Positions 31,398 to 44,017 of a stretch of DNA of 64,000 nt are shown in pieces. The notes beneath the pieces were generated by a model, which made no database searches, was not told where the DNA came from, and saw only the letters and a program-made list of their open reading frames with translations. The stretch is from NCBI RefSeq assembly GCF_021611515.1, contig NZ_CP090960.1:1240001-1304000 (forward strand). Reading direction: 5' to 3'. Positions within the stretch are counted from its first letter, which is position 1, and every line of letters begins with the position of its first letter. The DNA is from Mariluticola halotolerans (GTDB lineage Bacteria; Pseudomonadota; Alphaproteobacteria; Rhizobiales; Devosiaceae). The position numbers and the translations under genes were made by a program.

Positions 31398-33341
31398 CTA
31401 TTTGTTCTGGCGGTTCTCGACCAGATCGTCGACGACGCCGGGATCGGCCAGGGTCGAGGTGTCGCCCAGGGACCCATAATCGTTTTCAGCGATCTTTCTG
31501 AGAATGCGGCGCATGATCTTGCCGGACCGCGTTTTGGGCAGGCCGGGGGCAAACTGGATCAAATCGGGCGTGGCGATGGGACCGATTTCCTTGCGGACCC
31601 ATTGCACGAGCTCTTTTTTGAGATCATCGGTTACCGCTTCGCCCGCCATCAGGGTGATGTAGCAATAAATGCCCTGCCCCTTGATGTCGTGCGGATAGCC
31701 GACAACAGCGGCTTCGGACACTTTTGGATGCGCGACGAGCGCGCTTTCCACTTCGGCGGTGCCGAGGCGGTGGCCGGAGACATTGAGCACGTCATCGACG
31801 CGGCCCGTGATCCAGTAATAGCCATCCTTGTCGCGGCGACAGCCATCGCCGGAGAAGTAGTAGCCCTTGTACTGCTCGAAATAGGTGGAGACGAAGCGGT
31901 CATGATCGCCATAGACCGTGCGCATCTGACCCGGCCAGCTTTCCTTGATGGCGAGAACGCCTGATACCTCGGTATCGGTCAGTTCCTCGCCGGTATTGGG
32001 ATCGAGAATGACCGGCTGCACGCCAAAGAACGGCTTGGTTGCCGAACCGGGCTTTGTTGGTGTGGCGCCGGGGAACACGGAGATCATGCCCGCCCCTGTT
32101 TCGGTTTGCCACCAGGTATCGACAATGACACAGCGGCCACGGCCAACTTTTTCGTGATACCACATCCATGCTTGCGGGTTGATCGGTTCACCGACCGTGC
32201 CGAGGATTTTGAGCGAGGACAAATCCGCCTTTTCGACGAATTCATCGCCAGCGCCCATCAATGCGCGGATGGCGGTGGGGGCGGAATGGAAAATGTTGAT
32301 CTTGTGCTTGTCGACAACCTGCCAGAAGCGCGAGGCATCCGGATAGTTCGGCACGCCCTCGAACATGACCGTGGTCGCCCCATTGGCGAGCGGACCATAA
32401 ATGACATAGGAGTGACCGGTGACCCAGCCCACATCGGCGGTGCACCAGTAAATCTCGCCCTTGTTGTAGTCGAAATTCATCTCATGGGCGAGCGCGGCAT
32501 AAACCAGATAGCCACCCGTGGTGTGCAGCACACCCTTGGGGGTGCCGGTGGAGCCGGAGGTGTAAAGGATAAACAGCGGATCCTCGGCATTCATCGGCTC
32601 GGGATCGCAGAAGCTGTCGACACCATTGGCGGCTTCGTGCCACCAGACGTCGCGACTGCCCTTCATATCGATATCGGCACCGGTATTCTTGACCACCAGT
32701 ACCTTGGTGACGCCTGCCGCATCGGCCAGGGCGATATCGACATTTTTCTTCAAGGGGATGGTTTTGCCGCCGCGACGACCTTCATCGGCAGTGATGACGA
32801 GGGCAGAATCACAATCATTGATGCGGCCGGCCAGGGCGTCGGGCGAGAAACCGCCGAAAACGACGGAGTGCACAGCACCGATACGGGCACAGGCCAGCAT
32901 GGCATAGGCGGCTTCGGGAATCATTGGCAGGTAAATGGTAACCCGATCACCCTTTTTGACACCGAGACCCTTCAACACATTGGCGAAACGGCAGACCCGA
33001 TCAAACAATTGCTGATAGGTGATCTTGTCATCTGTACCCGGCTCGTCACCTTCCCAGATGATGGCGACATCATCGGCCCGCTCGGGCAAATGGCGGTCAA
33101 TGCAGTTGGCGGCGACATTAAGCGTGCCATCCTCAAACCATTTCACCGACACACCCGGGTAGGCAAAGGTGCTGTTTTTGACCTTGGTGAACGGTTTGAT
33201 CCAGTCGAGGCGCTTGGCCTGCTCGCTCCAGAACCCTTCCGGATCGTTGACAGAAGCGGCGTACATCTCTTCGTATTGTTGCGTCGTGACGTGGGTCCGC
33301 TCCAGAATATTCGCTGGCGGATTAAAGATTTTATCGTCCAT
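31398..33341 (-). CDS. acs: Acetyl-CoA synthetase
   Basis: A 647-residue AMP-forming ligase that activates acetate. Motifs are P-loop [24 protein letters not shown], the hinge and C-terminal [20 protein letters not shown], and the acetylatable lysine in [16 protein letters not shown]. Length is typical of Acs. Downstream of a 255-base gap from livF, with its own terminator. The position beside pckA and an ScfR-type regulator fits growth on acetate. Confidence 0.95.
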
Positions 33342-33596: not shown

Positions 33597-34361
33597 CTAG
33601 ATCGCCAGATATTCCTGGCGCAGTTCGGCACTGTCGAGCACCTCTTGCGCCGTGCCGGTGAAGGCAACCTGACCTGTATCGAGGATAACCGCCCGATCGC
33701 TCAGCCGAAGCGCTGCGACCGCGTTCTGTTCCACAATGATCGTGGTGATGCCCAGCTTTTTGATGCCATGCAGGATGCGTTCGATCTCCTGAACGATGAC
33801 CGGCGCGAGACCTTCATAAGGCTCATCGAGCAGGAGCAGCTTGACCTCGCGGCTGAGAGAGCGGGCAATGGCGAGCATTTGCTGCTCGCCGCCGGACAAG
33901 GTTGTGCCCTCCTGCTTGCGGCGCTCGCCGAGCCTTGGGAAATGCTCATAAACCTCTTCAGGGGTCCAGCCATGGCCGGGCGCGACCTGGGCCAGTTGCA
34001 GGTTTTCCTCAACGGTGAGGCCCTGAATGATGCGGCGGTCTTCAGGCACAAGCTGCACGCCGGCCCGCGCCGACTGATAGGCGCTCATGGTGTGCAGGGC
34101 GTGATCGCCCAGCATGATTTCGCCGGAGCGCAACTCGGGATTGTCCGCCCGGGCGATGGCCCGAAGCGTTGAGGTTTTGCCTGCGCCATTGCGCCCGAGA
34201 AGCGCGAGAATTTCGCCCTCGTTGATATCGAAGGAAACACCCTGCACGATATAGCTTTCGCCATAATAGGCATGGATATCGTTGACCGAGAAATAAGGTG
34301 CGGTTGTCAATGTCGTTGCCCCCCTGGCGATGTGGGTTTCCAGGACCATCTCATTCATCAT
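33597..34361 (-). CDS. livF: Branched-chain amino acid-type ABC transporter ATPase (LivF)
   Basis: About 254 residues: Walker A GRNGAGKTST, LSGGEQQMLAIARSL, Walker B LLLLDEPYEGLAP. The start MMNEMV at 34359-34361 has a gggagg site and overlaps the end of livG by 11 bases; the open frame further upstream is not used. One of two ATPases of a HAAT-family importer whose substrate is uncertain. Confidence 0.9.
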   Translation of the reverse strand: MMNEMVLETHIARGATTLTTAPYFSVNDIHAYYGESYIVQGVSFDINEGEILALLGRNGAGKTSTLRAIARADNPELRSGEIMLGDHALHTMSAYQSARAGVQLVPEDRRIIQGLTVEENLQLAQVAPGHGWTPEEVYEHFPRLGERRKQEGTTLSGGEQQMLAIARSLSREVKLLLLDEPYEGLAPVIVQEIERILHGIKKLGITTIIVEQNAVAALRLSDRAVILDTGQVAFTGTAQEVLDSAELRQEYLAI

Positions 34362-35127
34362 GCGACCCTCCCAGGTAGGCTTCCTGAACCTTGGGATTGG
34401 CGCGCACCTCGTCGGGCGCCCCTTCCGCAATGATCCGTCCGCCTGCGAGTACCGAAATCTTGTCGGCGAGCGAGAATACCACGTGCATGTCATGCTCGAT
34501 GATAATCTTGGTCATGCCGCGCGCCTTGATCTTTTTCAAAAGATCAATGGTGGTGTTGGTGTCATGCCGCGACATGCCCGCTGTCGGCTCGTCGAGCAGG
34601 AGAAGCCGCGGATGCTGGATCAGGCACATGGCCAGTTCCATGCGGCGCTTGTCCCCCCGGCTGAGCGCGCCGGCATGGGCATCGCGCCGGTGATAAAGCC
34701 CCACATCGTCGAGAATCTCCTCGGCTTCCTGACGCACCTCTCGCTCACTGTCGAGGGATTTGAGGAAGTTGAGGGTGAAGGCCCCGTCGCGCTTGGCGAA
34801 GGCCGGGGTCATCACATTGTGCAGGACCGTAAGCTCGGGGAAAATTTCCGGCGTCTGGAAAACGCGGGCGACCCCGATCTGGTTGATTTCGTGCGGGGCC
34901 TTGCCGGTCAACACCTGACCATCGAAGACGACGGCGCCACGGCTGGGGGCAAGACGCCCGACGATGACATTGAGCAGCGTGGATTTGCCGGCACCATTGG
35001 GGCCGATAATCGCGTGGGTCTTGCCCTCTTCCACCGCCAGATCGATGTCTGACAGGGCATGCAGGCCGCCGAAGGTTTTGTGCACATCATCGACATGCAG
35101 AACGATGTTTTTGTCGCTGGTACTCAT
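34351..35127 (-). CDS. livG: Branched-chain amino acid-type ABC transporter ATPase (LivG)
   Basis: About 258 residues with GPNGAGKSTLLNVI and LLLLDEPTAGM. The signature is LSRGDKRRMELAM rather than the usual LSHGE-type, as in some urea or short-chain-acid importers. Start MSTSDKNIVLHV at 35125-35127 is preferred to a longer N terminus overlapping livM. Translationally coupled to livF. Confidence 0.88.
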   Translation of the reverse strand: MSTSDKNIVLHVDDVHKTFGGLHALSDIDLAVEEGKTHAIIGPNGAGKSTLLNVIVGRLAPSRGAVVFDGQVLTGKAPHEINQIGVARVFQTPEIFPELTVLHNVMTPAFAKRDGAFTLNFLKSLDSEREVRQEAEEILDDVGLYHRRDAHAGALSRGDKRRMELAMCLIQHPRLLLLDEPTAGMSRHDTNTTIDLLKKIKARGMTKIIIEHDMHVVFSLADKISVLAGGRIIAEGAPDEVRANPKVQEAYLGGSHDE

Positions 35128-35146
35128 TTTTATGGCCTTCCGATCA

Positions 35147-36289
35147 TCATTCTGCGGGCTGGGTGCGGGCATCGCCGCTGGCTTCATCCGGCGGGCTTCG
35201 CCGCCGGAAAAGATCGCCGATGCGCCGGAACCCTTCCATCATGCCGCCGGGCAGGAAGACCACGACAAGCACGAAGACCAGGCCCAGGGTGAGATGCCAG
35301 CCTTCGCCCACAAATTGCGAGGTGACGGCGACGACGATTTCGCGCAGCCCCTCGGGCACCCAGGAGAAGATCTGGGCGAGCAGATCATCGTTGAAGGCGG
35401 AGAAGATGTTTTCGAAATACTTGATGATCCAGGCACCAAAGACAGGACCCAGCAAGGTGCCGACACCCCCCAGAATGGTCATGAGCACCACCTCGCCCGA
35501 GGCGGTCCATTGCATGCGCTCGGCACCGGCCAGAGGATCGGCCACAGCGAGCAGACCACCGGCGAGACCGGCATACATGCCCGAGATGACGAAGGCCGCC
35601 AGTGCATAAGGCTTGGTGTTGAAGCCGGTATAGTTCATGCGGGTCTGGTTGGACTTGATGCCCTTGAGCATCATGCCAAAGGGTGACCCGGCAATGCGCA
35701 TGGACAAAAAGAAGGTCAGCAGCATGATGACCGCGCAGACATAAAAGCCTGTGTAGCCGCCCATATCGAGACCAAGGAAAGTTGTGGCGGGCAGCCCTGC
35801 CCCGGCTTCCCCAAACATGCGATCGATAATGCGCGGGTCCTGCAGGGTGAGCTGGAGACCGGTTTCGCCATTGGTGATCGGGGTCAGCACCGAATAGGCC
35901 AGCTTGTAGCTCATTTCGGCGAAGGCCAGGGTGAGGATGGAGAAATAGATGCCCGAACGCCGGAGGCTAATGAAGCCGACAATCAGGGCGAACAGGCCCG
36001 CCGTGATGACCGAAAGCAGCAGCGCCAGCGACCCATCCATGGTGAACAGCTTGAACGACCAGACCGCCGTGTAGGAGCCGACGCCAAGGAAGGCTGCGTG
36101 GCCGAAGCTGAGATAGCCGGTGAGCCCGAACAGGATGTTGAAGCCAATCGCGAGGATGGCATAGATCATGAAACGCTGCAGCAGATCGGGATAGGCCGCG
36201 CCAAAGGGCGACAGCCAGATCGGCATGGTGAGCACGGCCAGGGTGAACAGACCAAATGTGAGAATGTCCTTACGGTTCATGGTGAGCAT
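35147..36289 (-). CDS. livM: Liv-type ABC transporter permease (LivM)
   Basis: A 380-residue membrane protein with about ten hydrophobic segments and the LivM core ([31 protein letters not shown]). It starts two bases after the livH stop. C-terminal polar tail of about 30 residues. Forms the channel with LivH. Confidence 0.9.
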
Positions 36290-36291
36290 GA

Positions 36292-37320
36292 TCAGTTCTC
36301 CATAACGCCGCGGCGGCCAAGCAGCCCGCGGGGCATTGCCAACAAGACGACAACGGCCACCAGGTAGATGATGATCTGGTCAATGCCGGGAATAATGGCC
36401 TTGATTTCGTTCATCGAGGCGAAGCTTTGCAGGATGCCGAGCAGGAAGCCGGCTGCCACGGCACCGGGCAGAGAGCCCATGCCGCCAACAACGACCACCA
36501 CGAAGCTGAGCACCAGAAAATCCATGCCGATATGGAAATTGGGCGGCAGCAAGGGCGTGTACATGACCCCGGCAAGGCCGGCGACGACGGCAGCGACACC
36601 GAACATGATGGTGAAGCGTCTGTCGATATTGATGCCGAGCAGCCCCACTGTCTCGCGATCTGCCATGCCGGCACGCACAACCATGCCGAATGTGGTGAAT
36701 TGCAGGAAGGCAAACACACCGCCGATGATGACCACCGAGAAGAGGAAATAGACCAGACGCCACCAGGGATAGGTGAGAATATTTGGATCCATGCCGAGCC
36801 AGAGCCCGATATCTGCCGCGCCGGACATGGCCGAGGGCATGGGCTGGGGCAAGGGATTTGCGCCGAAAATGGCCTTGATGATTTCCTGCAGCACAATGGC
36901 AAGGCCAAAGGTGACAAGAATCTGTTCGGCATGGGGGCGCTTGTAGAAATGCTTGATCAACCCGCGCTCCATGACCACGCCGACGACCAGCATGACCGGG
37001 ATGGCGACAAGTATGGATACGGGGACCGAATAATCGACCAGCACATTACCGAAATCACCAAACCAGGTGTTGATATAGGGAACGCGCACTTCGAGCGCTG
37101 TGCCCCATGGGGTTTTTTCGGTTTCGCTGAGGGTGACGCTTTCCAGAGTGAGGAAGCGGCGCACGGTGACGGCGCAGAACGCGCCAAGCATGAAGAGCGC
37201 CCCGTGGGCGAAATTGACCACGCCAAGGGTGCCGAAAACAAGGGTCAGGCCAAGCGCGATGAGCGCATAGGCGCCGCCCTTGTCCAAACCGTTCAGAAAC
37301 TGCAGAAGAATGGCATCCAT
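36292..37320 (-). CDS. livH: Liv-type ABC transporter permease (LivH)
   Basis: A 342-residue permease: [20 protein letters not shown] near the N terminus and [17 protein letters not shown] near the C terminus are LivH signatures. It is longer than typical LivH (about 300) because of an insertion around residues 50-80 ([14 protein letters not shown]), perhaps a periplasmic loop. First permease gene after the binding-protein gene. Confidence 0.9.
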
Positions 37321-37410: not shown

Positions 37411-38766
37411 CTAGCAGACCGAAGCCGGCTCGTAGGGGCCGAGTTCGCCGCCAAAGATTGAGGCGTCGTATTCGACCTGCGAACGCGGAACCTGCTGCAC
37501 AACTTCGAGAAGATCGAACTGTGAGGAAGGTGCCTGTTTACCGCGCACCACAAAGACATCCTTGAAGCACTGATGATCTTCGGCACGGTATTCGGTGGGA
37601 CCATTGCCCAGACCATCGAACTTGAAGCCTTCAAGCTGCTTGATGATTTCGGGCGGATAGAACGTGCCCGCCATTTCGCAGGCGTTTGCATAAAGCAGAG
37701 CCTGGACGTAGCAGGTGTGAGCAGCCTGGGAAGGCGGCTGGCCATATTCGGCACCGAAGGATTTAACGAAGGCCTTGGACCCTTCATCCTGCAGTGACCA
37801 ATGCCAGTTGGTTGTGCCCAGAATGCCCTTGATCGCCTCGCCGGCACCCTGTGCCATAAGACGCGAAAAGAGCGGCACCACAACCTGGAACTGCTTGCCG
37901 TTGACCTGTTTGTCGAGCAGACCGAACTGCACGGCCTGGGTCAGCGAGTTCACCATGTCGGCACCGTAGTGGTTCAGAATGAGCACGTCTGCGCCCGAGT
38001 TCAGAACCGGTGTCAGATATTGCGAGAAATCGCCCGCGCCAACCGGTGTGCGCACCGCAGCCTGGGTTTTCCAGCCCAGAGCTTCAGTGGCGTTCTTGAT
38101 CGATTCTTCCTGTGTCCAGCCCCAGGTGTAATCGGCCGTCAGATGGTAGGCGACGCGATCATTGCCATATTCCTGGCTGAGCACGGGCGCCAAGGCGGCG
38201 CCGGACATATAGGCATTGAAGAAGTGCCGGAAACCGTAGCGCTTCTTGTCCTTGCCTGTGGTGTCGTTCGAGTGGGTCAACCCGGCCATGAACATGATGC
38301 CCATTTCCTGGCAGAGACCCTGAACAGCAACGGCCACGCCCGAAGACGAACCGCCGGTGATCATGATCGCCCCATCGCGCTCAACCATGCGCTTGGCACT
38401 GTCACGGGCTGCATCGGACTTGGTCTGGGTATCACCGGTTACATAGGCAACCTTTTTACCCAGAATGCCGTTACCTTTGAGCTGGCCACCGACAAATGTG
38501 CTGAGCATGCCGCCGTCGCCTTCACCATTGAGGTGCTTGACGGCCAGCTGGTAAGCCTTGAGCTCGTCGCCGCCTTCGGCAGCGTAGGGCCCGGTCTGCG
38601 GCACGTTGAACCCGAGGGTTACGGTGTCGCCTGTTGGATTGTTGCAGAACTCCTGAGCCCAGGCACCGCGTACAAACACGGTTGGGGCGAGGCCAGTGCC
38701 GATCAAACCGGCTGCTGTCCCTTTGAGCACCTTACGCCGGCTGAAGCCGCTATCGCGTTCGCTCAT
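37411..38766 (-). CDS. livK: Liv-type ABC transporter substrate-binding protein, Tat-exported
   Basis: About 451 residues. A twin-arginine signal (FSRRKVLKGTAAG) leads to AWA|QEFCNN. The Peripla_BP_6 fold follows (LGFNVPQTGPYAAEGGDELKA). The start MSERDSGF has an aggagaga site; a longer frame upstream is rejected. A ligand other than leucine is likely: the protein is longer than LivK and sits with acs and an ScfR-type regulator, so a short-chain acid or amide is possible. Tat export suggests folding before secretion. Confidence 0.85.
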   Translation of the reverse strand: MSERDSGFSRRKVLKGTAAGLIGTGLAPTVFVRGAWAQEFCNNPTGDTVTLGFNVPQTGPYAAEGGDELKAYQLAVKHLNGEGDGGMLSTFVGGQLKGNGILGKKVAYVTGDTQTKSDAARDSAKRMVERDGAIMITGGSSSGVAVAVQGLCQEMGIMFMAGLTHSNDTTGKDKKRYGFRHFFNAYMSGAALAPVLSQEYGNDRVAYHLTADYTWGWTQEESIKNATEALGWKTQAAVRTPVGAGDFSQYLTPVLNSGADVLILNHYGADMVNSLTQAVQFGLLDKQVNGKQFQVVVPLFSRLMAQGAGEAIKGILGTTNWHWSLQDEGSKAFVKSFGAEYGQPPSQAAHTCYVQALLYANACEMAGTFYPPEIIKQLEGFKFDGLGNGPTEYRAEDHQCFKDVFVVRGKQAPSSQFDLLEVVQQVPRSQVEYDASIFGGELGPYEPASVC

Positions 38767-38848
38767 TCTCTCCTCCTTTTGATGCGGTGTGCGCCGATCT
38801 CCTCCGACGTTCTTCACCGCGTGTTAAAATAGGGAAGGTTTGAAAATG

Positions 38849-38864
38849 AATGCAATAGCGCATT
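38849..38864. promoter_or_regulatory. Short palindrome in the livK/ScfR divergent gap
   Basis: AATGC and GCATT with a six-base spacer, in an AT-rich divergent region of 178 bases. A candidate site for the ScfR-type regulator; weak evidence. Confidence 0.25.
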
Positions 38865-38944
38865 GTTATATATGGACTTTTTTGTAAAATTATGTACTAT
38901 CATCGCACATATTCTGTAAATTCTTTGACAGATCGAGATAAAAC

Positions 38945-40573
38945 ATGCGTGCGCCGATTGGCTTGAAAATCCGCAACTACCGGAAATCATTGGGGCTTTC
39001 CCAGTCTGGTTTGGCGCGGACAATCGGCATTTCGCCGAGCTATCTGAACCTGATCGAGGGGAATAAACGCGATGTCGGTGGCGTGCTTTTGCAGAAAATC
39101 GCCGCGTCACTGTCTATCGAGCTGGAAGAGCTGACCGGCGAATCGGAACAAAGGCTGATTCAGGAGCTTGAAGAGGCGTTTACCGATCCGGTGTTTGATG
39201 CAACGCATTTCAGCAATGCCGATGCGGTGGCGCTGGTGGCGCAATTCCCCGGTGTGGCCAATGCCCTGACCCGGCTGTTTCGCGCCTATGGCGATGTGAA
39301 TGCCCTGCTGGAAGCGCAGAGCAACCGTTTGCGCTCGGACCCGCTGTTTTCAGCCCTGTTGCACCAGATTCTCAGCCATATCACTGCCCTGCGCTCGAGC
39401 GCGGAAATTCTTGAAGATGAAGGCGATCTGTCGGAAGCGGAAAACCAGCGGTTTCTGTCCTCGATCAACCGTGAGGCGCGGGCGATGTCGGATGTGGGGC
39501 AGACGCTGATCCAGCATTTTGACCAGACCGCCGATCATCGCCGCTCGATCTCTCCGGCGCGCGAACTGGATGACCTGATTTTCAATGAGCGCAATCATTT
39601 TCCAGCGCTCGAGGATGCCGCCGCGCAATTGCGGCAGGGATTTGATGGCGGCAGGGGCTTTGGCGAAGCGGCGCTGGCCGAGGTGCTGGATGCACGGTTT
39701 AATGTGCAGGTGGAGCGTGGCCGCTCGCCGGATGCCAATGAAAGCGGGTTTCCCGGCCAGAGCTATTTTGATGCCAACCGGCGGGTGATGTGGTTTCAGG
39801 GTTCGACCACGGCCGCGACCCGGCAGTTTCAGCTTGCCCAGCTTTTGGCCGAACTGGCCGCCCCCGATGTCATCAACGCGCAAATCAACGATCCGCGGCT
39901 AACCTCCCCCGCGGCAAGGCGGCTGGCCCATCGCGCCATGAGCGCCTATCTGGCGGGGGCGCTGGTGTTTCCCTATGCGGCATTTCTGGAGGATGCGGAG
40001 AACCACGCCTATGACATTGATTTTCTCAGCCAGACCTATACGGCGAGTTTTGAACAGGTAGCGCACCGGCTGGTGACGCTCAGGCGTGAGGGCGAGGAAG
40101 GGATACCTTTCGGGTTTTTGCGCTCGGACCCGGCGGGGCGGCTGACCAAGCAATTCCCCCTGCCCGGCCTGTTGCTGCCCAATTCGGGCCACGCGTGTCC
40201 GCTTTGGGCGATTTATGCCGCCTTCCGCTCGCCCGGACAGGCGGTGCGGCAGGTGGTGCAATTTGCCGATGGTTCGCGCTATCTGTTTGTTGCCAAAACG
40301 GTTTCCAAGCGGCTGGCGACGTTCAAGGACCAGCCTTTTCATTCCTCGGTGATGCTGGCTTGCGATATTTTATATGCGGATCGCACGATTTATGGCCAGG
40401 GGCTGGATCTGGACGACCCGACCGCTGATGTGCCCGTGGGGCCGGCCTGTCGCTTGTGTGTCCGGCGGGCCTGCGCCTATCGGCAGGAAGAGGCCTTGAG
40501 CCCCGGCGCTGAAGGCACGACTATGCGCTCATCACTGGTGCCGCAAAGGTTTGAGCTTGGCGAAAGCAACTGA
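38945..40573 (+). CDS. ScfR-type (XRE/IrrE) transcriptional regulator with an embedded HisKA-like helix pair
   Basis: A 542-residue regulator. XRE HTH: KIRNYRKSLGLSQSGLARTIGISPSYLNLIEGNKR (residues 8-42). The C-terminal half resembles the IrrE-like plus DUF2083 part of short-chain fatty acyl-CoA regulators (RamB, MccR, PccR), with a cysteine-rich end (CRLCVRRACAY). Residues about 135-192 are unlike a plain linker: they align ungapped with the DHp helices of the sensor kinase downstream (LRSSAEIL, DLS, RF, SI), with His140 opposite the kinase's His684. It is longer than usual ScfRs by about this segment. Divergent from livK. It probably controls acs or the transporter. Confidence 0.78.
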   Translation: MRAPIGLKIRNYRKSLGLSQSGLARTIGISPSYLNLIEGNKRDVGGVLLQKIAASLSIELEELTGESEQRLIQELEEAFTDPVFDATHFSNADAVALVAQFPGVANALTRLFRAYGDVNALLEAQSNRLRSDPLFSALLHQILSHITALRSSAEILEDEGDLSEAENQRFLSSINREARAMSDVGQTLIQHFDQTADHRRSISPARELDDLIFNERNHFPALEDAAAQLRQGFDGGRGFGEAALAEVLDARFNVQVERGRSPDANESGFPGQSYFDANRRVMWFQGSTTAATRQFQLAQLLAELAAPDVINAQINDPRLTSPAARRLAHRAMSAYLAGALVFPYAAFLEDAENHAYDIDFLSQTYTASFEQVAHRLVTLRREGEEGIPFGFLRSDPAGRLTKQFPLPGLLLPNSGHACPLWAIYAAFRSPGQAVRQVVQFADGSRYLFVAKTVSKRLATFKDQPFHSSVMLACDILYADRTIYGQGLDLDDPTADVPVGPACRLCVRRACAYRQEEALSPGAEGTTMRSSLVPQRFELGESN

Positions 40574-40594
40574 TTGCTGTTTAGTCGGGTCAAG

Positions 40595-40615
40595 ATTCCG
40601 GGCTTGAACCGGAAT
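40595..40615 (+). other. Hairpin just before the response-regulator ribosome site
   Basis: ATTCCGG/CCGGAAT with a 7-base loop ends one base before the ggaggggg ribosome site of the response regulator, 20 bases past the ScfR stop. It may modulate translation of the downstream genes. Confidence 0.4.
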
Positions 40616-40629
40616 GGAGGGGGACATTG

Positions 40630-41004
40630 ATGATTGACGTGCTCATTGCGGAGGATGAGCCGGGCATTCTGGAATCACTCGATTTCATTTTGAAACGCGC
40701 CGGCTGGACTATTCAAACCGTCACAGATGGTGACGCTGTTTTTGACGCTATACGGAAGCTTGCGCCCCGGGTGCTTGTGCTTGATGTCATGCTGCCCAAA
40801 CGCTCGGGCTTTGAGGTGCTCAAGCAAATCAAATCGGAGAGCGCGACAAGCGGGTTGCCGGTGCTGATTCTGACCGCCAAGGGCCAGCAACAGGACCGGC
40901 GGATTGCTGAAGAACTGGGAGCGGACGGCTTTGTGACCAAACCCTATGCCAATGCCGAGGTGGTGGAGGCCGTGCGGCGTCTGCTCGGCACCGCCGCGCC
41001 CTGA
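40630..41004 (+). CDS. Single-domain (REC-only) response regulator
   Basis: A 124-residue receiver: acidic pocket E8/D9, phospho-acceptor D52 in VLVLDVMLP, LILTAKG and the invariant lysine in FVTKPYA. There is no output domain. ATG 40630 is used because ggaggggg precedes it; a TTG one codon earlier is possible. Its stop overlaps the start of the small membrane protein gene (TGATG). Probably phosphorylated by the downstream kinase. Confidence 0.9.
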   Translation: MIDVLIAEDEPGILESLDFILKRAGWTIQTVTDGDAVFDAIRKLAPRVLVLDVMLPKRSGFEVLKQIKSESATSGLPVLILTAKGQQQDRRIAEELGADGFVTKPYANAEVVEAVRRLLGTAAP

Positions 41005-41252
41005 TGGGCGACCGGCGCAAACTGGAGAACGCGGCTTTTGTGCTGCCGCTGTTTGGCGCCATTTTGCTGATTCCGCCGCTGGCGAATGTGTTCAACAAGG
41101 ATCTGACGATTTTTGGCGTTCCGCTTGAAGTGCTTTATCTTTTTGCTATCTGGTGCATTCTCATTGTGGCGACATTCTTTTTGTCACACCGGATGAGCGA
41201 GACGCCTGCCGCGTCCCGGTCTGATGCGGAAAAGACCGGGGACGAAAGCTGA
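41004..41252 (+). CDS. Small two-helix membrane protein, symporter small-subunit-like
   Basis: An 82-residue protein with two hydrophobic segments (about residues 11-28 and 38-60) and a charged C-terminal tail. It resembles the small subunits that precede solute:sodium symporters (DUF4212/DUF485 type) in size and placement. It overlaps the response regulator and the kinase by one base each, so it is probably a partner of the kinase's symporter domain. Exact family uncertain. Confidence 0.65.
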   Translation: MGDRRKLENAAFVLPLFGAILLIPPLANVFNKDLTIFGVPLEVLYLFAIWCILIVATFFLSHRMSETPAASRSDAEKTGDES

Positions 41253-44017
41253 TGCTGTCAGCCAATTTCGTCATTTTCATCGCTTTTGCCTATGTGTGCC
41301 TATTGTTTGTGCTGGCCTATTTTGGGGACAAGCGCGCCCGGGACGGCAATGCCGGGTTTTTGCGGTCCCCCCTCGTCTACACGCTATCGATTTCGGTTTA
41401 CTGCACCAGTTGGACCTTTTATGGCGCGGTTGGTTCGGCGGCGCGTAACGGGCTGGAATTTTTGACCATCTATATGGGGCCAACACTGGTTTTTGTCGGC
41501 TGGTGGTTCATTTTGCGCAAGCTGGTGCGCATTGGCCGGACCCAACGCATTACCTCGGTGGCTGACCTGTTGTCCTCGCGCTTTGGCAAATCGGGACGGC
41601 TGGCAGTGCTGGTGACACTGATCGCGGTGATTGGCACCACGCCTTATATCGCGCTGCAATTGAAGGCGATCACCTCCTCGATCCGGGTGATCAGTGCGGC
41701 TGATGTGGCGGGCGGGCTCTCCTCGTTTGATGATGTGACGCTGGCGCTGGGGGTTGCGGCCGGCATGGCGTTGTTCACAATTTTGTTCGGCACGCGCAAT
41801 GTGGATGCGAAAGAACAACACCACGGGGTTGTGGCCGCGATTGCCTTTGAAGCGGTGATCAAGATGCTGGCGCTGCTGGCGGTGGGCATTTTTGTGGTGT
41901 TTGGCGTTGGTGGCGGGTTTGAAGAGATTTATGTGCGGGCCGTGGATGCGGGGATTTCCATCCATTCCGAGGACACGTTCGGGCCGCGCTGGGTCGCGAT
42001 ACTGGTATTGTCGGCGGCGGCGGTTTTGTGTTTGCCGCGCCAGTTCCAGATTACCGTGGTCGAGAATTCGAACGAGGACCATTTGCGCACGGCGGGCTGG
42101 GCGTTTCCCACCTATTTGCTGCTGATGAGCGTTTTCACCATGCCGATTGCGCTTTACGGGCTGACCACCCTGCCCAATGGCTCGAACCCGGACATGTTCG
42201 TTTTGACGCTGCCGCTGGCGACGGGCAATACCTGGCTGGCGCTGTTTGCGTTTATCGGTGGGTTTTCCAGCGCAACATCGATGATCATTGTGGCGACGAT
42301 TGCCCTCTCCATCATGGTGTCGAACCATATTGTGATGCCGATTGCGCTTTCCAGCTCGGAGACGCTGGGCACCGGCGACGGGCGCGGGGTGACGCAATTG
42401 CTCTTGAACAGCCGGCGGATTTCCATCGCCTTTGTGCTGTTTCTGGGCTTTTTGTATTTCTGGCTGACCGGCAATTCCGACGCGCTGGCGGCGATCGGGC
42501 TGATCTCGTTTGCCGGGGTGGCGCAATTCCTGCCCGCGATGATCGCAGCGCTCTACTGGCGGGATGCGACGGTGAAAGGTGCGATCTGGGCGACGCTGAC
42601 CGGGTTCAGCGTTTGGGCCTGGACGATGTTTTTGCCCAGTTTCGGTTCGGCCAGCCCATGGATCAGCGCGATCATGGAACACGGACCCTGGGGCATAACG
42701 CTGTTGCGGCCTGAAGCACTGTTTGGGCTGGAAGGCATGGACCCGCTGGTGCATTCGGTGTTCTGGAGCCTGTTTCTGAACAGCGCCATTCTGATCCTTG
42801 TCTCGATTTTCACATCGCAATCAACACTGGAACGGGTGCAGGCAACGCTGTTTGTCGATGTGTTCCGCCGCCATTCGGCTGATCAATCGAACTTTATCCG
42901 TGGTTCGGCGACGGTGAATGACCTGTTTTTTGTGGCGCAGCGGATTTTGGGGGGTGAGCGCACCTATGCCCTGTTTGAAGGGTTTGCGCGCGAACGCGGC
43001 GTGCCGCGCGGCGATGTGGAACCGAACCCGGAACTGATCGGGCAACTGGAACGGGAACTGGCCGGCTCGATCGGGGCGGCTTCGGCCCATGTCATGCTCT
43101 CGAAAGTGGTTTCGGGCAATGAGGTTTCGCTGGAAGAAGTGATGCAGATTGCCGATGAGACGCAGCAGGTGATCGAATATTCCCAAAGGCTGGAGCAGAC
43201 TTCAGAGGAATTGCGCAATACCGCGGCGCAATTGCAGGAAGCCAATGAGCAGATGCGCAAGCTGGACCAGCAAAAGGACGAGTTTTTGTCGCAGGTGAGC
43301 CATGAGGTGCGCACGCCAATGACCTCGATCCGCTCATTTGCTGAAATTCTGCTGGAGCATCGCGATTTGTCGGGCGACCAGCGCACCCGCTTTACCTCCA
43401 CCATTCATCAGGAAAGCCTGCGGCTGACGCGGTTACTGGATGAAATTCTGGATTTGAGCGCGCTGGAACGGGGCGAACGGGAATGGGTGAATGCGCCGAT
43501 TGACCCCAATATTGCCATCGCCCGCGCCATTGAGGTTTGCGAACCGCTGTTGCAGCAGCGCGACATGCAGCTGAACCTGGGGGAGACGGTGGCCGAGGTG
43601 ACGGTGGCGGCGGACCCCGACAGGCTGGCGCAGGTGTTTATCAACCTGTTGTCCAATGCCATCAAATATAATGACGATGCCAACCCCTACGTGCGCCTGA
43701 GCGCTTCGGTGACAGGCAAAGATTTCATCGTGCATATTGAGGATAACGGGCCGGGCATTGATGTGTCGGACCAGCGGCTGATTTTCGAGAAATTCTCGCG
43801 CGGCCGGCGACGCGGCAACCGGGACGAAGCCGGCTCGGGCCTGGGGCTGGCGATCAGCTATCAGATTATCACCCGCATGAACGGGCGGCTTGACCTTGTG
43901 AGCGGCCGCGGCCGTGGAGCCTGTTTTCGGGTGACCTTGCCGCTGGTGCCAGCCGAGGCGCAAAAGAAGAAGCGGCGGCCAAGATCCAAAAAGGATCAAC
44001 AGGGGGCGGTGGACTAA
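41252..44017 (+). CDS. Solute:sodium symporter-histidine kinase fusion (CbrA-like)
   Basis: A 921-residue membrane sensor. About 13 hydrophobic segments of the SLC5/PutP fold occupy residues 1-540, followed by a STAC-like linker and a coiled segment (about 630-680). The kinase core has the H-box QVSHEVRTPMTSIRSFAEIL with His684, N-box NLLSNAIKYN, G1 HIEDNGPGID and G2 GSGLGLAISYQII. CbrA/CrbS-type proteins sense carbon or acetate status. The upstream receiver is the likely partner. The charged tail is KKKRRPRSKKDQQG. Confidence 0.9.
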   Translation: MLSANFVIFIAFAYVCLLFVLAYFGDKRARDGNAGFLRSPLVYTLSISVYCTSWTFYGAVGSAARNGLEFLTIYMGPTLVFVGWWFILRKLVRIGRTQRITSVADLLSSRFGKSGRLAVLVTLIAVIGTTPYIALQLKAITSSIRVISAADVAGGLSSFDDVTLALGVAAGMALFTILFGTRNVDAKEQHHGVVAAIAFEAVIKMLALLAVGIFVVFGVGGGFEEIYVRAVDAGISIHSEDTFGPRWVAILVLSAAAVLCLPRQFQITVVENSNEDHLRTAGWAFPTYLLLMSVFTMPIALYGLTTLPNGSNPDMFVLTLPLATGNTWLALFAFIGGFSSATSMIIVATIALSIMVSNHIVMPIALSSSETLGTGDGRGVTQLLLNSRRISIAFVLFLGFLYFWLTGNSDALAAIGLISFAGVAQFLPAMIAALYWRDATVKGAIWATLTGFSVWAWTMFLPSFGSASPWISAIMEHGPWGITLLRPEALFGLEGMDPLVHSVFWSLFLNSAILILVSIFTSQSTLERVQATLFVDVFRRHSADQSNFIRGSATVNDLFFVAQRILGGERTYALFEGFARERGVPRGDVEPNPELIGQLERELAGSIGAASAHVMLSKVVSGNEVSLEEVMQIADETQQVIEYSQRLEQTSEELRNTAAQLQEANEQMRKLDQQKDEFLSQVSHEVRTPMTSIRSFAEILLEHRDLSGDQRTRFTSTIHQESLRLTRLLDEILDLSALERGEREWVNAPIDPNIAIARAIEVCEPLLQQRDMQLNLGETVAEVTVAADPDRLAQVFINLLSNAIKYNDDANPYVRLSASVTGKDFIVHIEDNGPGIDVSDQRLIFEKFSRGRRRGNRDEAGSGLGLAISYQIITRMNGRLDLVSGRGRGACFRVTLPLVPAEAQKKKRRPRSKKDQQGAVD

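Follow-up and report, generated by a model that had tools for sequence, protein, structure and literature searches.

A DHp-like helix pair in an ScfR-type regulator encoded beside a receiver-only protein and a symporter histidine kinase

Described systems closest to the locus

Transcriptional regulators of the ScfR family, such as RamB, PccR and MccR/PrpR, respond to fatty acids and combine an XRE-type HTH, an IrrE-like domain and a C-terminal domain of PF09856. The regulator analysed here is encoded in a 64,000-nucleotide stretch of the Mariluticola halotolerans genome (hereafter the window), and it has all three parts and four cysteines in common with the family. In contrast to the family, it carries about 70 extra residues that seem to form a DHp-like hairpin, which the canonical paralogues lack, and regulators with this segment are nearly always tied to a stand-alone receiver (REC) protein and a symporter kinase.

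In the Spo0F-Spo0B and CckA-ChpT-CtrA systems, His-Asp-His steps proceed via a DHp-like protein without kinase activity, and in relays of the Spo0B/ChpT type the DHp-like protein hands the phosphate to another REC. The DHp-like part of the present locus lies instead inside a transcription factor and would terminate the relay. The activity of the PRD factors (BglG, LicR) is set by His phosphorylation from the PTS; control by phospho-His would be a common feature, whereas the donor here would be a REC and the acceptor a DHp helix pair.

The kinase resembles the sensors of the SLC5/STAC systems CrbS/CrbR, RpuS/RpuR and CbrA/CbrB in the fusion of a symporter to a histidine kinase, and the proposed control by a carbon source is also alike. 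RpuS/R has a DUF3311-type small gene nearby, as does the set in the window. The response regulator of Sinorhizobium RpuS/R and CrbS/R belongs to the LuxR family (PMC9100948), whereas in the window the receiver lacks an output domain and the DHp-like segment belongs to a separate ScfR protein.

The first-pass annotation, made from the DNA letters alone, had known of no pathway in which a kinase, a REC-only protein and an ScfR-type regulator are joined. Our search, of a literature collection that includes few subscription papers, found no account of a DHp within an ScfR or XRE protein. One paper comes close: a passing remark in PMC10370305 mentions Pden_1785 of Paracoccus denitrificans as an ScfR-network gene clustered with two-component genes, and the same paper lists Pden_2985 as one clustered with an isocitrate-lyase-family gene. 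The main text of that paper is silent on any histidine or DHp segment, and Pden_1785 was not studied there.

A segment of the regulator related to the partner kinase

Besides the HTH, Pfam detected an IrrE-like (M78) domain at residues 252-376 (PF06114, E 5e-10) and a ScfRs C-terminal domain at residues 378-519 (PF09856, E 4.4e-42), and by these three domains the regulator is classified as an ScfR protein (Table 1). The first-pass annotation had listed only the HTH and the IrrE-like part as typical of ScfR; both are present, and it had omitted the C-terminal domain. PrpR of M. tuberculosis is the nearest solved structure and matches residues 204-514 (sequence E 4e-51, Foldseek 1.8e-26). Cys418, Cys502, Cys505 and Cys510 are invariant in alignment A4. 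As summarised in PMC10370305, PrpR needs a [4Fe4S] cluster for CoA ester binding. The RamB equivalog NF038139 did not reach its cut-off on the regulator (310 bits against a curated 700), and its best stretch covered residues 180-530.

Table 1 Positions of the features discussed, in window coordinates unless a locus is named
Feature	Position	Strand	Details
Acetyl-CoA-synthetase-like AMP-binding enzyme (ACAS_N + AMP-binding)	31398..33341	-	Downstream of ABC genes
LivH, LivM, LivG, LivF-type permease and ATPase genes	33597..37320	-	
Periplasmic binding protein, liv-type ABC transporter	37411..38817	-	PF13458 E 3.8e-69; divergent from regulator
TTGTAAA box 1, divergent promoter region	38882..38888	+	Conserved motif
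CTGTAAA box 2, in direct repeat with box 1 (32 bp apart)	38914..38920	+	Conserved motif
ScfR-type transcriptional regulator	38945..40573	+	542 aa; Pfam, AlphaFold2
XRE-type HTH, residues 9-63	38969..39133	+	PF01381 E 1.2e-9
Long helix, residues 102-131	39248..39337	+	AlphaFold2; leads into hairpin, at the kinase signalling-helix position
DHp-like helix pair, residues 133-158 and 164-200	39341..39544	+	HisKA matches, AlphaFold2, HK853/EnvZ register, cassette-kinase homology
His140, candidate phospho-acceptor	39362..39364	+	Aligned with kinase His684; H in 56/61 homologues
Cys stretch: Cys418, Cys502, Cys505, Cys510	40196..40474	+	All four aligned with PrpR Cys
Stand-alone receiver protein (REC only)	40630..41004	+	PF00072 E 1.7e-25
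Asp52 of REC, counted from ATG at 40630	40783-40785	+	Invariant in 57/57
Small membrane protein, weakly DUF3311-like	41004..41252	+	82 aa; overlaps both neighbours by ATGA
CbrA-like symporter histidine kinase	41252..44017	+	921 aa; HisKA 674-741, HATPase 788-898
Kinase DHp	43271..43474	+	Phospho-acceptor His684 at 43301-43303
PAS/DHp-like/exonuclease proteins	L231:2534-4663, L232:2999-5113, L234:8494-10641, L229:8303-10363, L230:2153-4210		

The part of the regulator beyond the usual ScfR domains covers about residues 126-200. Canonical ScfR paralogues from the same and other genomes align on either side of residues 116-204 or so, and not across them, and the HisKA model matched no other ScfR protein in the window's genome. 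Pfam gave no match to a HATPase (CA) domain in the regulator, where the IrrE-like domain comes after the segment; this bears out the earlier statement that the kinase N-box and G-boxes are missing.

The segment aligns without gaps with the DHp of the kinase encoded in the same set. In RSSAEILEDEGDLSEAENQRFLSSINREARAM of the regulator and RSFAEILLEHRDLSGDQRTRFTSTIHQESLRL of the kinase, 14 of the 32 positions from RS onward are identical, and His140 and His684 each sit ten residues ahead of these stretches; the number of identities and the pairing of the two His are those of the first-pass annotation. The alignment scores 86 (BLOSUM62, ungapped), whereas 2000 shuffled versions of the segment averaged 27 and never exceeded 54. 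The Pfam HisKA model matched residues 135-183 of the whole regulator with E 0.0025 (18.3 bits) and the segment alone with E 2.4e-4 (21.5 bits), both under the cut-off of 26.9; it matched 17 of 21 homologous segments, the best with E 8.6e-7. CreC, a curated kinase model of NCBIfam, matched residues 136-190 (E 3.3e-6). Chance similarity to a DHp was considered and is ruled out by the shuffles together with the profile matches. These comparisons, made at the sequence level, confirm homology between the segment and the partner kinase's HisKA/DHp helices, and the proposal of a HisKA-type domain in the regulator is thus backed by the HisKA, CreC and kinase profiles.

When a profile of the segment was run against whole genomes, the cassette kinase ranked best of all kinases in each of the 23 carriers (E 2e-10 to 2e-15), and the other kinases of these genomes reached E 2e-9 or weaker. 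The window's genome encodes 21 HisKA proteins, the regulator not counted; there, the cassette kinase scored 61.7 bits and the next kinase 24.9. Since the cassette kinase is the top match in each carrier, the segment is specifically related to its partner. The likeness may reflect descent from the kinase, a requirement on both proteins to bind one REC, or the two together. A search of PDB sequences placed HK853 first with one alignment (E 0.027) and gave mixed weak matches with another.

Being nearest to the cassette kinase's DHp within the genome is also what hetero-association would require. In such an arrangement, the catalytic domain of the kinase would phosphorylate the regulator's DHp directly, or the two proteins would form mixed DHp bundles, with the REC as a phosphate sink. 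We consider this most improbable, as the kinase sits in the membrane and the regulator binds DNA, and the acidic residue next to the histidine (H+1), needed for HisKA autophosphorylation (PMC3510030), is mostly replaced in the segment.

The AlphaFold2 model of the full regulator, built with 45 homologues, has three helices (102-131, 133-158 and 164-200) between the HTH and the IrrE-like domain, and the segment predicted alone forms the same hairpin. AlphaFold2 is moderately confident of the hairpin, with pLDDT about 52-73 when the whole protein is modelled and 76-85 over most of the segment when it is modelled alone. A prediction without a DHp bundle had been named as evidence against the idea, and the models yield a helix hairpin. 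In a Foldseek search of the PDB, the HK853 DHp ranked first and more HK853 entries ranked high, with a best E of 0.11 that is not significant. VIA-align paired model residue 31 with HK853 residue 248 and EnvZ residue 231. As derived from the ends of the aligned ranges, His140 (model residue 43) then falls on HK853 H260 and EnvZ H243, both of which are phospho-acceptors. Helical hairpins matched many unrelated folds in VIA-align, including the focal adhesion targeting domain and ING4, and we therefore do not accept the structural match alone as proof. The sequence profiles and the His register weigh against a coiled-coil coincidence as the cause of the likeness.

Order and distribution of the gene set

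The regulator gene is followed by genes for the REC-only protein with Asp52, which the first-pass annotation had recognised, for a membrane protein and for the kinase. The regulator, REC and kinase genes lie where that annotation had placed them. The catalytic residues of the REC and the kinase are invariant across the sets, and kinase His684 was found in 54 of 54. The symporter half of the kinase (41252-43201) and the STAC region matched no Pfam family, and Pfam found no receiver domain within the kinase. Residues 6-527 match a solved chain, 10ed, titled 'histidine kinase' (E 5.7e-74). With a symporter domain, recognised by this match, fused to HisKA-HATPase, the kinase resembles SLC5/STAC kinases of the CbrA/CrbS type. 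The small membrane gene, which we add to the first-pass description together with the divergent liv-type operon upstream, is translationally coupled between REC and kinase, and its product is possibly a subunit of the symporter kinase. This gene is conserved in nearly all sets. No Rfam family was found in the region.

The order of regulator, REC-only protein, membrane protein of ~80 residues and kinase is contiguous in 21 of 21 loci of the order, and the homologue search that the first-pass annotation had proposed thus shows the set recurring across loci of the order and the class. With the segment as the query, 29 of 40 further class-level loci had a contiguous set. In five (L102, L115, L123, L124, L125), all parts were in the fetched stretch, rearranged or apart; in another five (L088, L094, L106, L113, L114), the kinase and an adjoining REC were elsewhere in the genome; and in one (L118), the REC was missing from the fetched stretch. 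The regulator, small gene and kinase of L118 (genome G228) have no REC between them, and a different contig carries the closest REC-only gene, with 43% identity. The kinase gene lies in two reading frames at L139:9897-12705 (Devosia algicola) and also in L151 and L172, reflecting either sequencing error or decay.

Among 150 genomes of the order, the segment-bearing regulator and a kinase of ~900 residues that matches over its full length occur in the same 23, beyond which the fragmented genome G128 gave partial matches. In about 95 other genomes of the order, the kinase is present only in a longer form (mostly about 1170-1400 residues) that aligns over the first ~650 residues alone, and these genomes have no segment-bearing regulator. 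In 398 sampled genomes of the phylum, no segment-bearing regulator was seen outside Alphaproteobacteria. By name, the carriers include Devosia, Maritalea, Pelagibacterium, Cucumibacter, Microvirga, Neorhizobium, Amorphus, Marivibrio and Paracoccus; Devosia and its allies are the nearest named relatives of the window's organism, and P. ferrooxidans has the four-gene set with the His in the segment. Since the genes of the set are tightly linked, their co-occurrence alone cannot tell which of the products signals to which.

DHp domains are dimerisers. The segment might thus be a relic, a kinase-derived helix pair that now merely pairs regulator subunits, and canonical ScfR proteins indeed work without it. 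This explanation seems very unlikely to us, as it leaves unaccounted for the conserved His, the strict co-occurrence with a REC-only set and the likeness to that set's own kinase.

In other proteobacterial classes, and in L234 of the same order, a PAS/DHp-like/3'-5' exonuclease protein is encoded between the REC and the small membrane gene. When the regulator's profile was searched against just five of these proteins, the DHp-like part matched with E 2e-11 to 2e-5, one of the five not being among the matches; by alignment, this part has E, M or T at the His position. A second DHp-bearing partner may be a wider trait of REC-only kinase sets, as this arrangement suggests, and the exonuclease protein is a possible second, unrelated output of the same kind of set.

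The conserved histidine and the proposed signalling chain

The conservation of His140 was counted over 61 loci picked by similarity of the regulator or the segment, not by the His itself; 60 loci from another search were excluded from this count because their search pattern contains the His. Position 140 is H in 56 of the 61, Q in three and F in two, and the flanking positions 138, 139 and 141 are widely variable. H+4 is T, S or N in 60 of the 61, and H+1 is acidic in few (E in 7, D in 2). Positions R150, S151, E154, I155 and L156 are nearly invariant and correspond to the commonest residues of the kinase there. The regulator in the window has Q141 at H+1 and H145 at H+5. Since both the acidic residue and the Pro of HisKA are missing, the geometry near His140 may differ. 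In HisKA kinases, the acidic H+1 is required for kinase activity and Thr/Asn at H+4 for phosphatase activity (PMC3510030). The segment has thus mostly lost the kinase residue at H+1 and kept the His and H+4, a pattern to be expected if the domain exchanged phosphate with a REC, or acted on one, without autophosphorylation.

The His is absent from five of the 61 regulators. One of these, L046, belongs to an intact set, whereas in L113, L114, L124 and L125 the regulator and the kinase are separated. Among contiguous sets, 1 of 50 has lost the His, and among separated sets 4 of 11 have (Fisher p 0.003), a difference that stems from about two independent events only. In the four regulators that have gone from the kinase set, Q or F takes its place. 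Loss in the detached regulators hints that the His may serve the link to the REC or kinase. Homologous regulators with neither a conserved His140 nor a REC or kinase gene nearby had been named as evidence against the relay; both are nearly always kept.

We favour, with somewhat better than even confidence, a reading in which the regulator is an ScfR factor that gained a kinase-related DHp as a two-component input port, so that signals would run from kinase to REC to regulator. The CbrA-like symporter kinase (SLC5) would sense a small carboxylate or related solute and phosphorylate the REC-only protein at Asp52, a step we expect because histidine kinase-REC chemistry is established and all catalytic residues are conserved. 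Since the REC has no output domain, it would act through the regulator's DHp, docking there on a surface similar to the kinase's own. It would then most likely pass the phosphoryl group to His140. The His-less regulators, one of them in an intact set (L046), and the L118 regulator with no REC beside it speak against this reading.

Docking might also suffice by itself. The segment would in that case be a REC-binding surface, and contact with phosphorylated REC would change DNA binding or the dimer state, with His140 retained for the interface or for phosphatase chemistry rather than for carrying phosphate. The loss of the acidic H+1 and the Pro and the better conservation of H+4, the phosphatase position, than of His140 itself are consistent with this. 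The His-less pseudo-DHp encoded between REC and small gene in related sets beyond the class provides a further hint. On the other hand, His140 is kept in most homologues amid freely varying neighbours (138, 139, 141) and is lost mainly where the regulator has left the set, and we regard docking without transfer as rather unlikely, if worth keeping in view.

Transfer to His140 is favoured over docking because the His is conserved. The pathway drawn in the first-pass annotation is strongly supported in its DHp homology, its four-gene set and its link among REC, kinase and regulator; the relay to His140 is what we infer, on good grounds. As to the full form of this chain, we put at about even the chance that it is a His-Asp-His relay ending on an ScfR protein that senses acyl-CoA and FeS, with a DHp derived from the kinase's own and a partner surface kept since. 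Both the ligand domain of PrpR and its four Cys persist in the regulator, which would therefore join an outside signal, the phosphate, with an inside one, acyl-CoA and FeS.

In 112 of 121 loci, a gene for a periplasmic binding protein of the liv type points away from the regulator gene. (C/T)TGTAAA boxes occur in 102 of the 112 intergenic regions, compared with 7-12 in shuffles, and the window's region (38820-38944) has two; the 32-bp direct repeat of boxes was counted 28 times among the 112. The PrpR/RamB site TTTGCAAA was tried as the promoter motif and rejected, as it was not enriched (5 of 112 regions versus 2 in shuffles). The boxes are a candidate binding site, unlike that of PrpR/RamB. 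ScfR sites usually comprise two near-identical boxes (PMC10370305). Phosphorylation would alter the activity of the regulator at this divergent promoter, and the switch would control the operon for liv-type ABC carboxylate uptake and the acyl-CoA synthetase. From the divergent liv-type operon, the synthetase gene and the shared boxes, the output of the regulator is likely the uptake and activation of a short carboxylate. Sensor, shuttle protein and regulator probably make up one chain that governs the import and activation of short carboxylic acids.

The segment-bearing ScfR protein with its kinase set is a real and conserved architecture, apparently undescribed, and a variant of two-component wiring. 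Many REC proteins stand alone, and what they act on is often not known; here, the target can be read from the sequence because the transcription factor contains helices related to those with which the kinase binds the REC. If the proposal holds, a two-component system has been wired to an unrelated family of transcription factors by grafting of a DHp, which would be a new route and, in Alphaproteobacteria, a widespread one. It would assign an output to transporter-kinases whose receiver has no DNA-binding domain, and it becomes directly testable whether a transcription factor is phosphorylated on the His of a DHp.
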